Of a DNA stretch of 56,533 bases, positions 299 through 7,625 are shown piece after piece. The stretch is from Candidatus Cloacimonadota bacterium. GTDB lineage: Bacteria; Cloacimonadota; Cloacimonadia; Cloacimonadales; TCS61. Where the stretch lies: positions 1 through 56,533 of the forward strand of contig JAIPGO010000014.1 of NCBI GenBank assembly GCA_021736135.1. Reading direction: 5' to 3'. A model generated the notes under the pieces. That model worked only from the letters and a program-made list of their open reading frames with translations, made no database searches and was not told where the DNA came from. The translations under genes were made by a program, and so were the position numbers. Within the stretch, counting starts at the first letter, position 1, and every line of letters begins with the position of its first letter.

Positions 299-340
299 AT
301 TTTTTGGGCATAATAAAATATAATGAAATGGAGGCATATA

Positions 341-865
341 ATGCAAAGGAATATCCTTAAGGGGATCATTGTCTTTATGTTACTGGCAGTTGGTGTTTTT
401 GCTGTATCTGCTGATGTGGAACAGACGACTTATGAAGGCAAACTAATGAAAGTCAGCAAGATATGGTTTATTCAAACCGCTGCTGCTATGTTTGGTCTGG
501 ATGTCACAGCGCTTTCGCAAACCTACGGTGATTCACTTGTTTTAGCAAATGGTGATCAGGTTAAAATCACCGGTGACATGATAGAAGACGTGATAAACGT
601 CACAACTCTGCAGCTGGGAGAAAAATTATATACTGCAAAAATTGAAGAAAGTCCAGCAGCAACCACTGAAATTAAAAGTTACCAGGTTAATCCAAAAAGA
701 TGTATATCCTGCAATCTATGCGTTAGCAACTGTCCCACAGGCGCTATATCAATGGTAAATGGCAAAGCAGTGATTGACGTGAGCAAGTGCATCCAGTGCG
801 GGATTTGTAAAAACGGAAACGGACAGAACTGGAAAGGCTGTCCGACTGGCGCGATAAATAATTAA
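341..865 (+). CDS. exported 2x[4Fe-4S] ferredoxin-like protein
   Basis: Predicted 174 aa. GGAGG at 330-334 supports the ATG at 341 over the in-frame ATG at 323. Residues 1-24 form a Sec-type signal peptide or anchor (hydrophobic, no twin arginine). Residues about 25-105 are an unrecognised domain. The C-terminal part has two cluster motifs: a canonical CxxCxxCxxxCP, and a second whose last spacing is stretched (CxxCxxC, ten residues, CP). It probably carries electrons outside the cytoplasm. It opens a run of seven same-strand genes with gaps of 6-14 bp, next to a NapH-type membrane protein that could donate electrons. The missing Tat signal is odd for an Fe-S protein. The fold is secure from the Cys motifs; the partner and location are inferred. 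Confidence 0.8.
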   Translation: MQRNILKGIIVFMLLAVGVFAVSADVEQTTYEGKLMKVSKIWFIQTAAAMFGLDVTALSQTYGDSLVLANGDQVKITGDMIEDVINVTTLQLGEKLYTAKIEESPAATTEIKSYQVNPKRCISCNLCVSNCPTGAISMVNGKAVIDVSKCIQCGICKNGNGQNWKGCPTGAINN

Positions 866-871
866 TGATTA

Positions 872-1651
872 ATGATGAAATACGATAAGAAGCGGAGACG
901 GCTGCAGCTTTATTTTTTGCTGCTTTGGGTTGTGATTCTGCTGCAACTGATCATCGGGGTTTCGGGGATTGCTCATAATTACTGTCCGCAGGCGGCTGTC
1001 TGCTTTGGTTGCCTTAATCTGGGGCAGAATCTGGGAAACTGGATGTATCCCGGAGCGATAATTCTGGGACTGGTAATTTTCGTTCTAACGATGTTTCTGG
1101 GCAGGCAATTTTGCGGAACGGTATGCCCCTTTGGCACTATGCAGGATTTGATCTTCAGTTTGAATAAGAAAGCTTCCAAAAGAAACTATAAAGCAATGAT
1201 CCCTGTCAAAACGCATAATGCATTGAAATATTTCAAATATCTGATCCTGCTCTGGGTAGCCGTCAGCGCCTGGCTGGGAATCAATTATATATATATGCAG
1301 GCCTGTCCAGTTCTGGCATTGGGGCATCCGCAGAACCTGACCGTTTTGGGCGCAACCTCCCTTTTTATCATTATCGTGATCGGCTATTTCATTGAACGTT
1401 TCTGGTGCCTTTACCTCTGCCCTTATGGAGCATTGTTAAATATCAGCCAGTTTATGGGTAGAATACTGCATATCCCTCGCAAAAAGGTTTTCTGGAACAA
1501 GGACTGCTGCATTGACTGCAATCTGTGCAACGATTATTGCCCGATGCGCATCGAAGTTTCCAAATCGGAAGCTGTGGTAGATGTGGAATGCATCCACTGC
1601 CAGAGGTGCACACTCTGCTGTCCTGTACTTAAGAAACAAAAAAATAAATAA
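872..1651 (+). CDS. NapH/YccM-type membrane-bound polyferredoxin
   Basis: About 259 aa; start ATG 872 or 875, neither with a clear Shine-Dalgarno site. Several transmembrane segments (roughly residues 12-35, 55-78, 120-142, 150-178) are interrupted by two CxxxCP motifs (CGTVCPFG and CLYLCPYG) typical of the NapH/MauN/CcoG group. The C-terminus has two ferredoxin motifs, CIDCNLCNDYCP and CIHCQRCTLCCP. Family members pass electrons from the quinol pool or a cytoplasmic donor across the inner membrane to periplasmic partners. It sits second in the operon between two exported ferredoxin-like proteins, which fits the role of inner-membrane donor. There is no NapG, NosR or cytochrome gene nearby, so it is not part of a standard nitrate or nitrous oxide system. 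Confidence 0.85.
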   Translation: MMKYDKKRRRLQLYFLLLWVVILLQLIIGVSGIAHNYCPQAAVCFGCLNLGQNLGNWMYPGAIILGLVIFVLTMFLGRQFCGTVCPFGTMQDLIFSLNKKASKRNYKAMIPVKTHNALKYFKYLILLWVAVSAWLGINYIYMQACPVLALGHPQNLTVLGATSLFIIIVIGYFIERFWCLYLCPYGALLNISQFMGRILHIPRKKVFWNKDCCIDCNLCNDYCPMRIEVSKSEAVVDVECIHCQRCTLCCPVLKKQKNK

Positions 1652-1663
1652 GGATTTTATACT

Positions 1664-4129
1664 ATGAGACTGGTAATCATAGCGGCTTTATTAATTATAC
1701 TTTCAGGTTGTACCGATGACCTGACAAAAACCAGTGAACAGGCTCTTTTCCCCCGCATTGAATATTCCAACTGCACTGCCTGTTATGAGTGCCTGGACGA
1801 ATTTCAATGCCCACGCGATGCTATTATTATCGATGAATTACACCAGACTGTGTATATCGACCAGGAGAAATGCATTCGCTGCCTGGACTGCGTAAATGAC
1901 TTTGAGTGTCAATATGATGCCATCAAGCTGAATAAAGATGTCACGGCACCGGCAGCCCCGCAGCAGTTCTCTGCTTTTTCAGACAGCATCGGGACGTTGA
2001 ATATAAGTTTCTTTGCACCTGGAGATGATTCGCTTACCGGATTTGCCTATCTTTATGAACTGGAGCTCAGAGAAATGTCCGGCAATATTCTGGAAACGAA
2101 TTTTATCCCTCCGATCCCGTCATATCCCGATTCACCAGAAAACTGGCAGATCGGAAATATGCCGGAAAACGAGACCATCAACGTAACCGTAAGAGTTTAT
2201 GATGAAATGGGACATTGCTCACAGCCTGCGGCAACAGCAGTAGAGATTATGGGAGAATATATCGATCTGGAAGCCCCGGCTGCCATAAATGACCTTAATT
2301 CATTTAGTGACGAATATGAGATCACTCTCACCTGGACTGCACCGGCAGATCCGGAACCGAGAGCCAATGTTGCGTCTTATGAGATCAGATCAGCAAATAT
2401 TAACATAACCGCGGTCAACTGGGATGCTGCTGATGAAATTGAACAGGATATCACACCTGCTGCTGCCGGAGAAACCGAAACACTGACCATTAGTTATGTT
2501 GAAGCAAGCGGATTACAATATTTTGCCATCCGTTCCCTTGATGCAGCAGGCAATATCAGCGAAATTTCCAATAATGCCAGCGGCAATGCCACCGGAGATA
2601 TCACTGCTCCGGCTCAGATCACCGATCTGTCAACAGGTTTGCCGGGTAATACATCTATACCCTTAAACTGGACTGCGGTTGGTGATAACGGCAATTCAGG
2701 ACAGGCAACGGCATACATTATCCGCTATCATCAATATGAAATCAATGAAGAAAACTGGGATGAAGCTACCGTTTTTCCTCAGAACATGATCCCTCATTTA
2801 CCAGGAATTACTGAACAGATCAATATTACCGGGCTGCTGCCGGAATCCGAATATTATTTCGCCGTGATAGCGCTGGACGAAGTGAACAATCCTTCTCCGA
2901 TTTCCAATAGGACAAACGCCACGACTACGGCCTTACCGGATACGGAAGCGCCTGCTCCCGTTACTGATCTGCAATCGGCAGTTAATGATCCTGAAATAAT
3001 CCTGAACTGGACAGCTCCCGGTGATGACGGAAATGAAGGCACAGCCAGCACTTATGAAATGCGCTATAGTGAAACTGAGATCACGGAAGCCAACTGGGAT
3101 ACTGCCACAATCCTGGAAAATCTGCCTAATCCTGCTCCGGCAGGTGCCCAGGAAACATTCATTATTGATTTTCTGGCACCGGGCATCAACTGGTATTTTG
3201 CCTTGATTGCCAGTGACGAGGAAAATAATGTTTCCGCACTTTCCAATAATGCCCAGGCACTCATTCCTCTCGATGAAACAGCTCCGGCTCCGGTTAATGA
3301 TCTTTCCGCCGAAACAACCGAAACAGATATCATTTTAACCTGGACTGCACCAGGTGATGACGGTGATCAGGGAACTGCCGCCAGCTATGATCTGCGCTGG
3401 TCTTTAGCAGAAATTACGGAACAGAACTGGCAGAACGCTGCTCAATTACTAACTCCCGCTCCGCAACCTGCCGGAACCGAGGAAACAATGACTCTCTCTG
3501 ATTTTGACTCCGGCATCACCTATTACTTCGCCCTGAAATCCGCAGACGAGGAAGACAATATTTCTCTGCTTTCCAATAACTGCGATGCCTATATCGAAAT
3601 CATTATTGATGAAACTCCCCCGGCAGCCATTACAGATCTTGCCGTAAATGCCGGTCAAGCCAGCTATGGCAACCGGATCACCATAACCTGGACTGCTCCG
3701 GGAGACGATGGCAACACCGGCACCTGCACGGCTTATGAAGTGCGCTACCGGCAATCACCGATCACAGCAGCGAACTGGGGAACATCCACAGTATTTAATT
3801 CTCCACCAATCCCCGATCCTGCCGGTTCTTCAGAAAGTGTTACTGTGACCGGACTTACTGAAGGAATTATCTATTACTTTGCCGTTATAGGCATTGATGA
3901 AGCCGGAAACCAGGGCAGCGTGTCTAATTCACCCGGAGGAAAATGCTGCTACCAGATATTGGCAGCGTCATGTTCTGACTGCAATAACTGCATAAACACC
4001 TGTGACGAGGATGCCATTTATGATGCCGGTTATTACAAAGCCATCAATCCCAATCTTTGTGTTGGCTGCGGTGACTGCGTAAGCCACTGCCCGCATAATG
4101 CCATCAGAAGATGGGTAATTGCCTATTAA
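1664..4129 (+). CDS. lipoprotein with ferredoxin domains flanking six FN3 domains
   Basis: 821 aa. A lipoprotein signal peptide ends at the lipobox LSGC (Cys16). An N-terminal ferredoxin-like domain has Cys37/40/43/49 and Cys70/73/76/82, with the last gap of each motif five residues instead of the usual three. Six FN3-like domains follow (about residues 95-195, 204-308, 311-418, 426-536, 541-650, 652-760), most with the insert APGDDGN. A C-terminal ferredoxin domain has two canonical CxxCxxCxxxC motifs (Cys770/773/776/780 and 799/802/805/809). The layout is two redox heads at the ends of a roughly 20-nm FN3 rod anchored by lipid. The likely place is the periplasm or outer membrane, bridging donor and acceptor, but this is inference. 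No described family with this layout comes to mind. Confidence 0.85.
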   Translation: MRLVIIAALLIILSGCTDDLTKTSEQALFPRIEYSNCTACYECLDEFQCPRDAIIIDELHQTVYIDQEKCIRCLDCVNDFECQYDAIKLNKDVTAPAAPQQFSAFSDSIGTLNISFFAPGDDSLTGFAYLYELELREMSGNILETNFIPPIPSYPDSPENWQIGNMPENETINVTVRVYDEMGHCSQPAATAVEIMGEYIDLEAPAAINDLNSFSDEYEITLTWTAPADPEPRANVASYEIRSANINITAVNWDAADEIEQDITPAAAGETETLTISYVEASGLQYFAIRSLDAAGNISEISNNASGNATGDITAPAQITDLSTGLPGNTSIPLNWTAVGDNGNSGQATAYIIRYHQYEINEENWDEATVFPQNMIPHLPGITEQINITGLLPESEYYFAVIALDEVNNPSPISNRTNATTTALPDTEAPAPVTDLQSAVNDPEIILNWTAPGDDGNEGTASTYEMRYSETEITEANWDTATILENLPNPAPAGAQETFIIDFLAPGINWYFALIASDEENNVSALSNNAQALIPLDETAPAPVNDLSAETTETDIILTWTAPGDDGDQGTAASYDLRWSLAEITEQNWQNAAQLLTPAPQPAGTEETMTLSDFDSGITYYFALKSADEEDNISLLSNNCDAYIEIIIDETPPAAITDLAVNAGQASYGNRITITWTAPGDDGNTGTCTAYEVRYRQSPITAANWGTSTVFNSPPIPDPAGSSESVTVTGLTEGIIYYFAVIGIDEAGNQGSVSNSPGGKCCYQILAASCSDCNNCINTCDEDAIYDAGYYKAINPNLCVGCGDCVSHCPHNAIRRWVIAY

Positions 4130-4143
4130 CGGAGAATATAATA

Positions 4144-4371
4144 ATGAAGAAAAAAATATTTATCCTCAGCTTCATCCTGTTATTACTGCTGCTGCTTGCC
4201 AGCCACAAACCTTACGTCTGGCAAGCGAACTGTGCCGGTTGCGGCGACTGCGTGAAAATGTGCCCAGTTAATGCTATCACTATCGTGGAAAATAAAGCCG
4301 TGATAGATCAGAATAAATGCATAGACTGCAAGCTCTGCATCAGCGCCTGCACTTATGATGCCATCAGATAG
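4144..4371 (+). CDS. small exported 2x[4Fe-4S] ferredoxin
   Basis: 75 aa from ATG 4144. GGAG at 4131-4134 supports this start over an upstream ATG at 4111 that would overlap the previous gene. A Leu-rich segment at residues 5-19 acts as signal peptide or anchor, with no lipobox Cys. Two canonical motifs follow, CAGCGDCVKMCP and CIDCKLCISACT (the last lacks the usual Pro). Size and spacing match bacterial 2[4Fe-4S] ferredoxins apart from the signal. It lies 14 bp after the FN3 lipoprotein gene and 10 bp before another small ferredoxin gene, so the three are likely co-translated. It is probably a mobile or membrane-tethered periplasmic carrier. Confidence 0.8.
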   Translation: MKKKIFILSFILLLLLLLASHKPYVWQANCAGCGDCVKMCPVNAITIVENKAVIDQNKCIDCKLCISACTYDAIR

Positions 4372-4381
4372 GGCGGGCAAT

Positions 4382-4627
4382 ATGAAAAAGATAAATCTCA
4401 TACTAAGTATTGCCCTTTTACTGCTGCTTCTGATTGCCGCCTGCCAGAAAGCTACGGCCTATTCCTATAAAATTGATTCCGATGGCTGCATCGCCTGCGG
4501 TAAATGTTTTGAAGCATGTCCGCATAATGCCATCATTTACCAGGGTGATAAAGCCTTCATTGTTCAAAGCAAATGCACTGCCTGCGGACAATGCGTCTCC
4601 GTCTGCCCGGAAAATTCCATACATTAG
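4382..4627 (+). CDS. small 2x[4Fe-4S] ferredoxin lipoprotein
   Basis: 81 aa from ATG 4382; an in-frame upstream ATG at 4355 would overlap the preceding gene by 17 bp. The signal peptide ends in LLIAAC, a good lipobox with Cys21 as lipidation site. Two canonical motifs follow (CIACGKCFEACP and CTACGQCVSVCP). It is a paralog of the preceding small ferredoxin, but lipidated. The pair could serve different membranes or sit in series in an electron-transfer chain. Only a weak Shine-Dalgarno site (GGGCGGG) precedes the start, so translation may be coupled to the upstream gene. Confidence 0.8.
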   Translation: MKKINLILSIALLLLLLIAACQKATAYSYKIDSDGCIACGKCFEACPHNAIIYQGDKAFIVQSKCTACGQCVSVCPENSIH

Positions 4628-4636
4628 GGAGAAGCT

Positions 4637-5791
4637 ATGAACAAAAAAACATTGATTCTCTCTCTCTGCCTCTGCTCTATTCTGATGCTTTCCGCGAATG
4701 GACAATTCTCTCTGGCTTTTGGCTCAGATTCCGCTGACGGTCTGGAAACACGCTTCTCCTCCTATCTGCTGCATTATTCCGGCAACTGGTCATTATTAAA
4801 TACCACGAAAATCAAGTATTCGGAATTTCAGGATAATATTGGCAGCTATTATCAGGAAAATTATATCCGTAACCTCCTTGCTGGCAGTTACACCCAGCAG
4901 AACTGGTCTTTGGATTTCTCATTTGGTCTCGGAATTTCACCGGATGAAAATCACCCGCTGCAGCCGGAAGGCGTTAACGGATTTATTGAACAGCAGTGCA
5001 GTTACAGTTTAGGCGGAGGCTTCAAATATGACAATGATAAGCTTTATTTTGAGCTGGATCTGGATTATTATGCTGCCAGATTCGATAAATATAATCTGGG
5101 TCTGAACAACAGTGAACCAATCTCAGAAAATGATCTGACGGCATCCCTGAAAAGCGGATATTATATTTTTCCCGATCTGCTTATCTATCTGGGAACTGAT
5201 CACTTCAATGATCTTAATGATAATGAAATTATGAACTATTCCGATTATCACCTTACCGGTGAATACACGAAACGCCTTAACTACATACATTTCCTGGATC
5301 AGGATATATCTCTGGGCTATAGTGATCTGGATGAAGTTATTCCCTATTACGTTCTCACGCGTACGCGTTTAAGCTCTCGCTTTACGCCTGACTGGACGCT
5401 CCTCAACGTTCTGGAATATCAGGGCTGGCTGGATGAACAGAATGAAATATATCTGGGCAATTCCTGGTTCAAAACAACTATCCGCCGCAACCTGGGTATT
5501 TCTGCCGGTAATGAGCTTTCTTATCTGCAGGCTGCTGCGCAATATGAACTTGATACTGAAATCGGATATGCCCAACTGTCGGGTCGTTATTATATGAATA
5601 GTCTGATGCTGGCTGCTTCCGGTAAAAACTATTTTGGAAATAACCGCTGGCTGGATCAGCAGCTCAATGCCGGACTCGCCTGGTCTTTCGTGGAATTGGA
5701 TCTCAGCTTGAACTATGCTTTTGAATTAACACTAGGTGCCGGAGAAGACGAAAGCACTCTGCATACTATTTATCTGGAATTCACTTTTTAG
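4637..5791 (+). CDS. outer-membrane beta-barrel protein, unknown family
   Basis: 384 aa. The signal peptide probably ends near residue 22 (LSANGQ). The remainder alternates short amphipathic strands rich in Tyr, Leu, Asn and Trp, and the chain ends in YLEFTF, whose terminal Phe is typical of BAM-assembled barrels. It has no ferredoxin motif. GGGAG lies upstream and the gap to the previous gene is 9 bp. In this operon it is the obvious candidate for the pore through which a ferredoxin lipoprotein could reach the surface, as MtrB/PioB-type porins do for multiheme cytochromes. No similarity to those families is visible, so the role is inferred from position only. Confidence 0.65.
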   Translation: MNKKTLILSLCLCSILMLSANGQFSLAFGSDSADGLETRFSSYLLHYSGNWSLLNTTKIKYSEFQDNIGSYYQENYIRNLLAGSYTQQNWSLDFSFGLGISPDENHPLQPEGVNGFIEQQCSYSLGGGFKYDNDKLYFELDLDYYAARFDKYNLGLNNSEPISENDLTASLKSGYYIFPDLLIYLGTDHFNDLNDNEIMNYSDYHLTGEYTKRLNYIHFLDQDISLGYSDLDEVIPYYVLTRTRLSSRFTPDWTLLNVLEYQGWLDEQNEIYLGNSWFKTTIRRNLGISAGNELSYLQAAAQYELDTEIGYAQLSGRYYMNSLMLAASGKNYFGNNRWLDQQLNAGLAWSFVELDLSLNYAFELTLGAGEDESTLHTIYLEFTF

Positions 5792-5800
5792 GAAAATTAT

Positions 5801-6781
5801 ATGATAAAAACTCTGCTGGAAGGTTTCTTCCTCGGTATCTCCACAGGCTCTCTCTGCCTGATGACCTGTTCGCCCATCTACCTGCCCTACATCATGACCA
5901 GTGACCGTAAACTTTCTAAAAGCCTGCTGGCTATCGGTGAAATTTCACTCGGCAGATTTGTTTCCTACCTGAGTTTCGGCGCACTTGCCGGTTTTGCCGG
6001 AGCTAATATCAATGCCATGAACCGCAATCTTTTCGGTGCCATCGCTAACATTCTGCTTTCCATTTACCTGGTTCTGACGGTAGTGCGCACACACCAGTCC
6101 GAAAAGAAATGCGCCGTTCCACGCCTGGCAGGCATCACGCGCAGCGGACTGCTTCTGGGTATTCTCACGGGAATTAACTTCTGCCCTGCTTTCCTGATAG
6201 CTCTTTCCGAAGCAGTTAATCTCGGTGGCGTTGTCGCCGGAATTCTCCTTTTCGGCGGATTTTTTATTGGCACAACGCTTTACTTGATACCCCTGGCTTT
6301 TGCCAGTTTACTGACCCAGATCAAAAAGATGAAATCCATTGCCAGAATACTTTCACTTATCGTAGCTGCCTGGTTCATCGGAAAAGGGGCTATCGGAATT
6401 TATGAACATTTTCAGCCGCAGGAAAATCCGGGAGGCAGAATGATCGACGTTATTGCTCCTAAGAATAAGATCGCCGTCATCTCTTCCGATGTGCATCTCC
6501 CTTATTTCAAATCATTAAGTGATTCTGTTGCCAGCAGAATTTTTAGGGATGTTCCGGTTTTTTTACAGGATCAGGAGCTGCCAGATTCATTGTTTGTATT
6601 GAATTACATGTTTTTGGTTGATGATACGATACTCCTGAACAAAGCTCTGGAAAAGAAGGATCACATCCTCATCGAACCGGATTATGACATCAGATTCATG
6701 CTCGACTGGTTACAGAAATACACTTTCCGAACAGAAGAAAATTTCTCATGGGAATTTAACACCAGAGAACATGAACATTAG
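5801..6781 (+). CDS. CcdA/DsbD-like (SafE-type) membrane protein with C-terminal extension
   Basis: 326 aa. About six transmembrane segments fill residues 1-205. Cys residues in the first helix (GSLCLMTCSPIYLPYI) and in a later helix (GINFCPAF) are each next to Pro, the pattern of CcdA/DsbD-type thiol-reductant transporters. Residues about 206-326 form a soluble, Cys-free tail that I do not recognise and that ends in a His-rich stretch. It is the last gene of the ferredoxin operon. Keeping the many ferredoxin cysteines reduced outside the cytoplasm, so that clusters can be assembled or retained, would be a sensible role. A SafE/HupE-like transporter is the alternative. Confidence 0.65.
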   Translation: MIKTLLEGFFLGISTGSLCLMTCSPIYLPYIMTSDRKLSKSLLAIGEISLGRFVSYLSFGALAGFAGANINAMNRNLFGAIANILLSIYLVLTVVRTHQSEKKCAVPRLAGITRSGLLLGILTGINFCPAFLIALSEAVNLGGVVAGILLFGGFFIGTTLYLIPLAFASLLTQIKKMKSIARILSLIVAAWFIGKGAIGIYEHFQPQENPGGRMIDVIAPKNKIAVISSDVHLPYFKSLSDSVASRIFRDVPVFLQDQELPDSLFVLNYMFLVDDTILLNKALEKKDHILIEPDYDIRFMLDWLQKYTFRTEENFSWEFNTREHEH

Positions 6782-7409: not shown

Positions 7410-7625
7410 TGTATCGGAAGTGGCTGAAGCCACTATTGTTATTTTTAGCCATTGAACATTTCCCCCGATTGAAATCGGGGGCTAATAAGAGAATATAACT
7501 ACAACATAATCAACATATTATCTCTTATCAACCTGATTCATTGCTCTCTCTCATTAGCACTCAAATTCATTTGGGTGTTGAATTAGAACACCAACAAATC
7601 ATTCAGTCGCTTCAGCGACTTCCGG
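7410..7625. repeat. composite REP element 2
   Basis: Hairpins: A at 7419-7434, B at 7462-7481, inverted B at 7559-7576 (one mismatch) and inverted A at 7605-7620. The spacer between B and inverted B is shared with elements 3 and 4. The inverted A lies inside the 3' end of the transposase gene and encodes its last residues. Confidence 0.85.

Follow-up and report, generated by a model that had tools for sequence, protein, structure and literature searches.

A seven-gene operon of Cloacimonadota with predicted exported ferredoxins and a two-headed FN3 lipoprotein: a candidate cytochrome-free electron path across the cell envelope

Gene content of the operon

The window, the whole stretch of DNA that was analysed, is one whole contig of 56 533 nucleotides from a 4.1 Mb Candidatus Cloacimonadota genome (GenBank JAIPGO010000014.1). 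It carries an operon of seven genes, all on the forward (+) strand and separated by gaps of 6–14 nt. The first gene (323..865) encodes a predicted exported dicluster ferredoxin of 180 amino acids (Fer4, E = 1.3e-12; alignment of 11 sequences), which has a Sec-type signal, no twin-arginine motif and an N-terminal domain of ∼90 residues without a recognised fold. In its homologues at loci L048, L049, L051, L056, L067 and L068 the second cluster motif reads CxxDxxC...C and not CxxCxxC...C, a motif like that of the Asp-ligated cluster of Pyrococcus ferredoxin.

The second gene (872..1651) encodes a NapH/NosR-like inner-membrane Fe-S protein of 259 amino acids (Fer4_5, E = 3.9e-18; TIGR02163, E = 1.4e-15, below the cut-off). 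This protein shares four transmembrane segments and two CX3CP motifs with NapH, NosR and RdhC (PceC), and a C-terminal 4Fe-4S pair with NapH and NosR. From topology and conservation in nine homologues, and by the distribution of positive charges, the two CX3CP motifs and the C-terminal dicluster domain were placed on the cytoplasmic side. It differs from NapH in its score (57.6 bits against a cut-off of 213.05) and in an outer face with His35, Cys38, Cys44 and Cys145, all invariant in the nine homologues, so that conserved cysteines lie on both membrane faces in the predicted topology. For RdhC, NosR and NapH, this membrane module has been connected with the passage of electrons to enzymes on the periplasmic or exocytoplasmic side (PMC5928378).

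The third gene (1664..4129) encodes the rod protein described below and is followed by two genes for small dicluster ferredoxins. Small ferredoxin A (4144..4371, 75 amino acids; Fer4, E = 3.8e-14; 23 sequences of this type) has an N-terminal signal or anchor and no lipobox; small ferredoxin B (4379..4627, 82 amino acids; Fer4, E = 2.6e-17; 31 sequences of this type) is a predicted lipoprotein with the lipobox IAAC. The sixth gene (4637..5791) encodes a probable outer-membrane beta-barrel of 384 amino acids from an unnamed family. The last gene (5801..6781) encodes a CcdA/DsbD_2-type thiol-disulfide transporter of 326 amino acids (DsbD_2, E = 1.6e-16), in which the membrane domain and the cysteine motifs are those of the known family; unlike that family, it has an extra C-terminal domain and ferredoxins rather than cytochromes as neighbours. 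The motif C[LF]x[TS]CxPxYLP was found in all 29 relatives of this protein. Searches of Pfam and NCBIfam detected no cytochrome family in the operon.

A lipoprotein with a ferredoxin head at each end of an FN3 rod

A preliminary description of the third gene had proposed a lipoprotein with ferredoxin heads at both ends of a rod of six FN3 domains, and this was correct in all details checked by ORF, motif, Pfam and own-repeat profile. The product has 821 amino acids (ATG to TAA) and a lipobox (LSGC-TDD), the Cys16 codon of which lies at 1709..1711. The N-head (1772..1909) carries CX2CX2CX5C twice, with cysteines at 37/40/43/49 and 70/73/76/82, and the C-head (3971..4090) carries CX2CX2CX3C twice, with cysteines at 770/773/776/780 and 799/802/805/809. 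The difference in spacing reported earlier, five residues ahead of each last cysteine in the N-head and three in the C-head, is borne out by these positions; the earlier description took it as a sign that the two heads may differ in potential. The C-head thus fits the standard pair of motifs for a dicluster [4Fe-4S] ferredoxin and the N-head departs from it in its X5 spacing; the clusters are predicted in both.

Pfam detected both domain types in one chain (fn3, E = 1.3e-29; Fer4_6, 2.5e-12; Fer4_9, 2.8e-10). A profile built from the repeats of the window itself located six FN3 copies between residues 95 and 758 (1946..3937), at 95–188, 204–307, 315–419, 429–532, 540–641 and 652–758. The AlphaFold2 model contained FN3 sandwiches over residues ∼203–760, with a block pLDDT mostly between 50 and 86, the heads and first FN3 domain being unresolved, and the top Foldseek matches to this model were multi-FN3 receptors such as gp130-type chains and LAR FN1-4. 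The rod is therefore a tandem FN3 repeat protein by all four methods. No family in Pfam or NCBIfam spans the full protein, no PDB match joined FN3 to ferredoxin, and a well-described family with this exact layout was found in none of the three.

One FN3 domain is ∼3.5 nm long and six would measure about 20 nm, which upholds the earlier statement that the two heads lie beyond electron tunnelling distance. The heads were also compared with profiles of either type. The N-head of the window reached 109 bits with the profile of its own type and 22 with that of the C-heads, and the C-head reached 92 bits with its own type and 22 with that of the N-heads; by these scores the two heads are clearly distinct ferredoxin lineages.

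All eight N-head cysteines are invariant across 18 homologues from different genomes, a conservation that chance does not explain. About 22 complete homologues have this layout with a differing number of FN3 domains (4, 5, 6, 8 or 12, corresponding to about 14–40 nm). The layout is not universal, as the protein at L060 has the N-head only and those at L061 and L062 are without an N-head. The proposal that the two ends work with different partners gains indirect support, from the distinct lineages and from the fact that either head can be missing alone. The second motif of the C-head is shortened to CX2CX2CX1-2C in many relatives.

Three further observations were made among these relatives. C-heads with an unusually spaced second motif, CxxCxxCxCP, were seen at L042, L045, L048, L051–L054, L056, L058, L059, L067 and L068. 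The 12-FN3 rod of L066 (genome G115), just upstream of position 7624, has an in-frame TAA right where the N-head starts, which may reflect a pseudogene, recoding or an assembly error. At L047 the gene at 5545–6153, directly upstream of a five-FN3 rod, encodes an exported protein of 202 residues that has four 4Fe-4S motifs.

Conservation and linkage within the phylum

The gene set around the rod is alike in about 25 genomes, and the nearest named relative, with 59% identity in the rod, is a Candidatus Cloacimonadota MAG. The N-terminal part of the rod was present in 28 of 125 Cloacimonadota genomes and the barrel family in 44; 24 genomes had both, a co-occurrence with a Fisher p of 5e-10 in a test that ignores genome kinship. 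The four rods without a barrel were all on contigs that end early. Profiles of rod and barrel were run against 387 genomes, of which about 260 came from outside the phylum set, with few candidates scored per genome; neither protein was found beyond the Cloacimonadota set. A plasmid search with the rod gave no match.

A dicluster ferredoxin gene lay directly upstream of the barrel gene in all 39 loci compared, and a CcdA-like gene directly downstream in 26 of the 39. Many genomes, however, have this core ferredoxin-barrel unit without an adjoining NapH-like protein or rod. In family f10 the core is kept without the rod, and the rod is thus not part of the minimal unit or essential to it. No reductase or transporter gene was kept in the operon across the loci compared. 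The parts of the operon and their conserved linkage can be assigned with high confidence from these comparisons. In two family-f10 genomes (L073 and L085), as read from the sequence, a ferredoxin-barrel unit with a ferredoxin of the 323–865 type adjoins genes that look like those of a xanthine-dehydrogenase-like molybdoenzyme and of a large Fe-S protein.

A probable outer-membrane beta-barrel

No credible family match to the 384-residue protein (4637..5791) was found in Pfam or NCBIfam, and a PDB search returned only weak matches, all of them to OmpG (E = 0.06). The protein has a signal peptide and ends in phenylalanine. The C-terminal residue is aromatic in 31 of 33 family members and phenylalanine in 26, compared with phenylalanine in 12 of 183 control proteins. 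Amphipathic strands were denser than in the controls (4.8 against 2.9 per 100 residues; p = 1e-17, a value made conservative by a few family members among the controls and less so by relatedness). An AlphaFold2 run from two sequences, those of the window and of L037, gave a pLDDT of 28 and no usable fold. These data point indirectly, and with moderate confidence, to an outer-membrane beta-barrel. At about 380–440 residues the barrel may be too small to hold a ferredoxin inside.

Export and surface location

Sequence features make the export of the operon's ferredoxins highly probable. Two other arrangements were considered and rejected: membrane-anchored ferredoxins facing the cytoplasm, by the lipoboxes, FN3 domains, type IX secretion (T9SS) tails and N-terminal positive charges; and export by the Tat system, by a twin-arginine motif in none of 95 exported-looking Fe-S ORFs and by a search for TatC that found none in 20 genomes.

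In three relatives (genomes G017, G002 and G035) the search did not detect a two-headed rod, and the operon encodes a ferredoxin of 178–179 residues with a type IX sorting domain (TIGR04183, E = 9e-11 and 5.7e-13 in two; Pfam Por_Secre_tail, 4.5e-7 in the third). Two of the three also have, in the place of the rod, a short lipoprotein whose only head is C-terminal. The tailed ferredoxins scored best with the C-head profile in two cases and gave a near tie in the third. The tail makes them resemble type IX cargo; such ferredoxins occur only in the relatives, whereas the operon of the window is without one and its rod has a lipobox. The T9SS translocon SprA was found in 20 of 20 genomes. We know of no described ferredoxin that is exported via type IX secretion. 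These data suggest that some C-head-like ferredoxins probably reach the cell surface.

An acidic residue stands at +3 after the lipobox cysteine in 23 of 24 rods and in none of 20 small ferredoxin lipoproteins. The C-T-D-D of the window fits a polar residue followed by an acidic pair and resembles the S-D-D signal by which Bacteroidota export lipoproteins to the surface (PMC5080379); many rods have a single acid, and the consensus is that of Bacteroidota and may not be that of this phylum.

Gene families not found in 20 Cloacimonadota genomes

Gene absence was assessed in 20 Cloacimonadota genomes, 19 of which had a completeness of 90% or more and a contamination of 5% or less. The cytochrome c assembly protein PF01578 was found in none of the 20 (controls 9 of 14). 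Neither of two menaquinone markers was found in the 20 genomes, namely PF02621 of the futalosine pathway (controls 4 of 14) and MenD (controls 14 of 14, seven above the cut-off); the oxidation of quinol by the NapH-like protein is therefore doubtful. TatC was also found in none of the 20 genomes (controls 11 of 14). Exported Fe-S proteins usually cross the membrane folded via Tat (see also PMC3623810). As this usual route was not found, the clusters, if the ferredoxins hold any, should be built outside the cytoplasm.

A proposed electron path and its alternatives

We give even chances to the reading that the operon encodes an electron path across the cell envelope, free of cytochromes and built from iron-sulfur proteins only. 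Electrons would pass from a cytoplasmic ferredoxin to the inner-side clusters of the NapH-like protein, on to its outer-side Cys/His site, and from there to exported ferredoxins in the periplasm, the 323–865 ferredoxin being the candidate acceptor. From the periplasmic ferredoxins they would move to the outer-membrane barrel, which would form the pore of the conduit with the small ferredoxins, and then to ferredoxins at the surface. The path may serve electron export or uptake, in either direction. Sec would export the proteins in the unfolded state, and the clusters would be inserted once they are outside the cytoplasm. CcdA keeps thiols reduced for cytochrome c, and the CcdA-like protein may do the same for the thiols of the exported ferredoxins.

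The rod would be a lipid-anchored protein of the surface (or of the outer membrane) and the outermost part of this route. Its N-head would sit at the membrane beside the pore and its C-head about 15–40 nm away on a flexible FN3 arm. A swinging head, as in a redox polymer, is favoured because 20 nm of FN3 bars exchange between the heads and because any number of FN3 domains would be tolerated; no electrons would flow along the FN3 chain, and tethered heads, whether on one rod or on neighbouring rods, would meet by swinging. The outer heads may then exchange electrons with partners outside the cell, such as minerals, humics or methanogens. The complete form of this proposal, a ferredoxin conduit solely of Sec-exported [4Fe-4S] proteins with clusters built outside the cytoplasm and flexible two-headed FN3 arms at the surface exchanging electrons with the outside, is put forward tentatively, as a possibility that falls short of being likely.

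The same genes could instead provide a redox supply that stays in the periplasm and does not cross the outer membrane. In this case the ferredoxins would supply electrons to a reductase or for the reduction of a nutrient (ferric iron, cobalamin or disulfides), and the barrel would be the entry pore for the substrate. The many genomes in which the core unit stands without a NapH-like protein or rod agree with this, as does the CcdA-like neighbour, which suits a supply of thiols or redox equivalents. Against this, the operon has no conserved gene for a reductase or transporter, and the T9SS-tailed ferredoxins of the three relatives point to the outside, so that we regard a purely periplasmic role as rather unlikely.

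The position of the rod is open to a second interpretation, in which it spans the periplasm with its N-head at the outer membrane and its C-head at the NapH-like protein, small ferredoxins shuttling between partners. Six FN3 domains come near to the width of the periplasm, and the operon encodes a donor in the inner membrane as well as a protein of outer-membrane type. The number of FN3 domains, however, ranges between 4 and 12 while the partners stay the same, and so varies too much to match a constant distance between two membranes, and the relatives that have a tailed, C-head-like ferredoxin instead of the rod also argue against this arrangement, which we judge improbable. The sorting tails, the presence of SprA, the likeness of the tailed ferredoxins to the C-head, the acid at +3 and the range of FN3 numbers make a surface rod likelier than one spanning the periplasm, and given a trans-envelope path its location on the cell surface is somewhat favoured.

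FusA imports plant ferredoxin, and a role in iron or Fe-S handling, with the exported ferredoxins as iron stores or re-imported through the barrel in a FusA-like manner, could account for a ferredoxin and a barrel-like protein always being encoded together (39 of 39 loci), but is very improbable as the barrel has no TonB-dependent receptor match in Pfam and is about half as large as these receptors usually are, and the NapH-like and CcdA-like genes indicate redox functions and not import.

Comparison with known electron conduits

Well-described outer-membrane electron conduits use c-type cytochromes. Like the porin-cytochrome conduits (MtrCAB of Shewanella, PioAB and the Geobacter clusters), the operon has adjoining genes for a barrel-like outer-membrane protein, periplasmic redox carriers, a redox lipoprotein of surface type and a donor in the inner membrane. 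It differs in having [4Fe-4S] ferredoxins where those conduits have multiheme c-type cytochromes, in a barrel that is unrelated by family search and in that no cytochrome c assembly genes were found in the 20 genomes. The layout works like that of a porin-cytochrome conduit, but the operon is not a member of that group because the defining cytochromes are absent.

We found no description of such a system in the open-access literature, outside which most subscription journals lie; the search covered ferredoxins that are exported or sit in the outer membrane, and extracellular electron transfer without cytochromes. Such a route for electrons through the cell envelope may not have been described before. 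Cloacimonadota, a group of anaerobic bacteria, occur commonly in digesters and sediments, and it is suspected that they exchange electrons directly with methanogens. The operon is a concrete and testable candidate for such exchange in genomes without cytochrome c assembly; if the proposal is true, it would add a heme-independent chemistry for extracellular electron transfer and Fe-S maturation without Tat. It also raises a second question, that of how clusters are acquired outside the cytoplasm in cells without detectable Tat. Published work on the phylum has suggested direct interspecies electron transfer, with pili the only carrier named (PMC13082233, PMC7382037).

Elsewhere in the window

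A separate gene set lies on the reverse strand (21463–46662, −). It encodes a T9SS-tailed protein of 2334 residues with cohesin domains in three stretches, as detected by Pfam. Its neighbours are three gingipain-like C25 peptidases, which bear type I dockerin domains, and a lamin-tail protein in which the dockerin match stayed under the cut-off. From these domains the set is a possible cellulosome-like scaffold for proteases.
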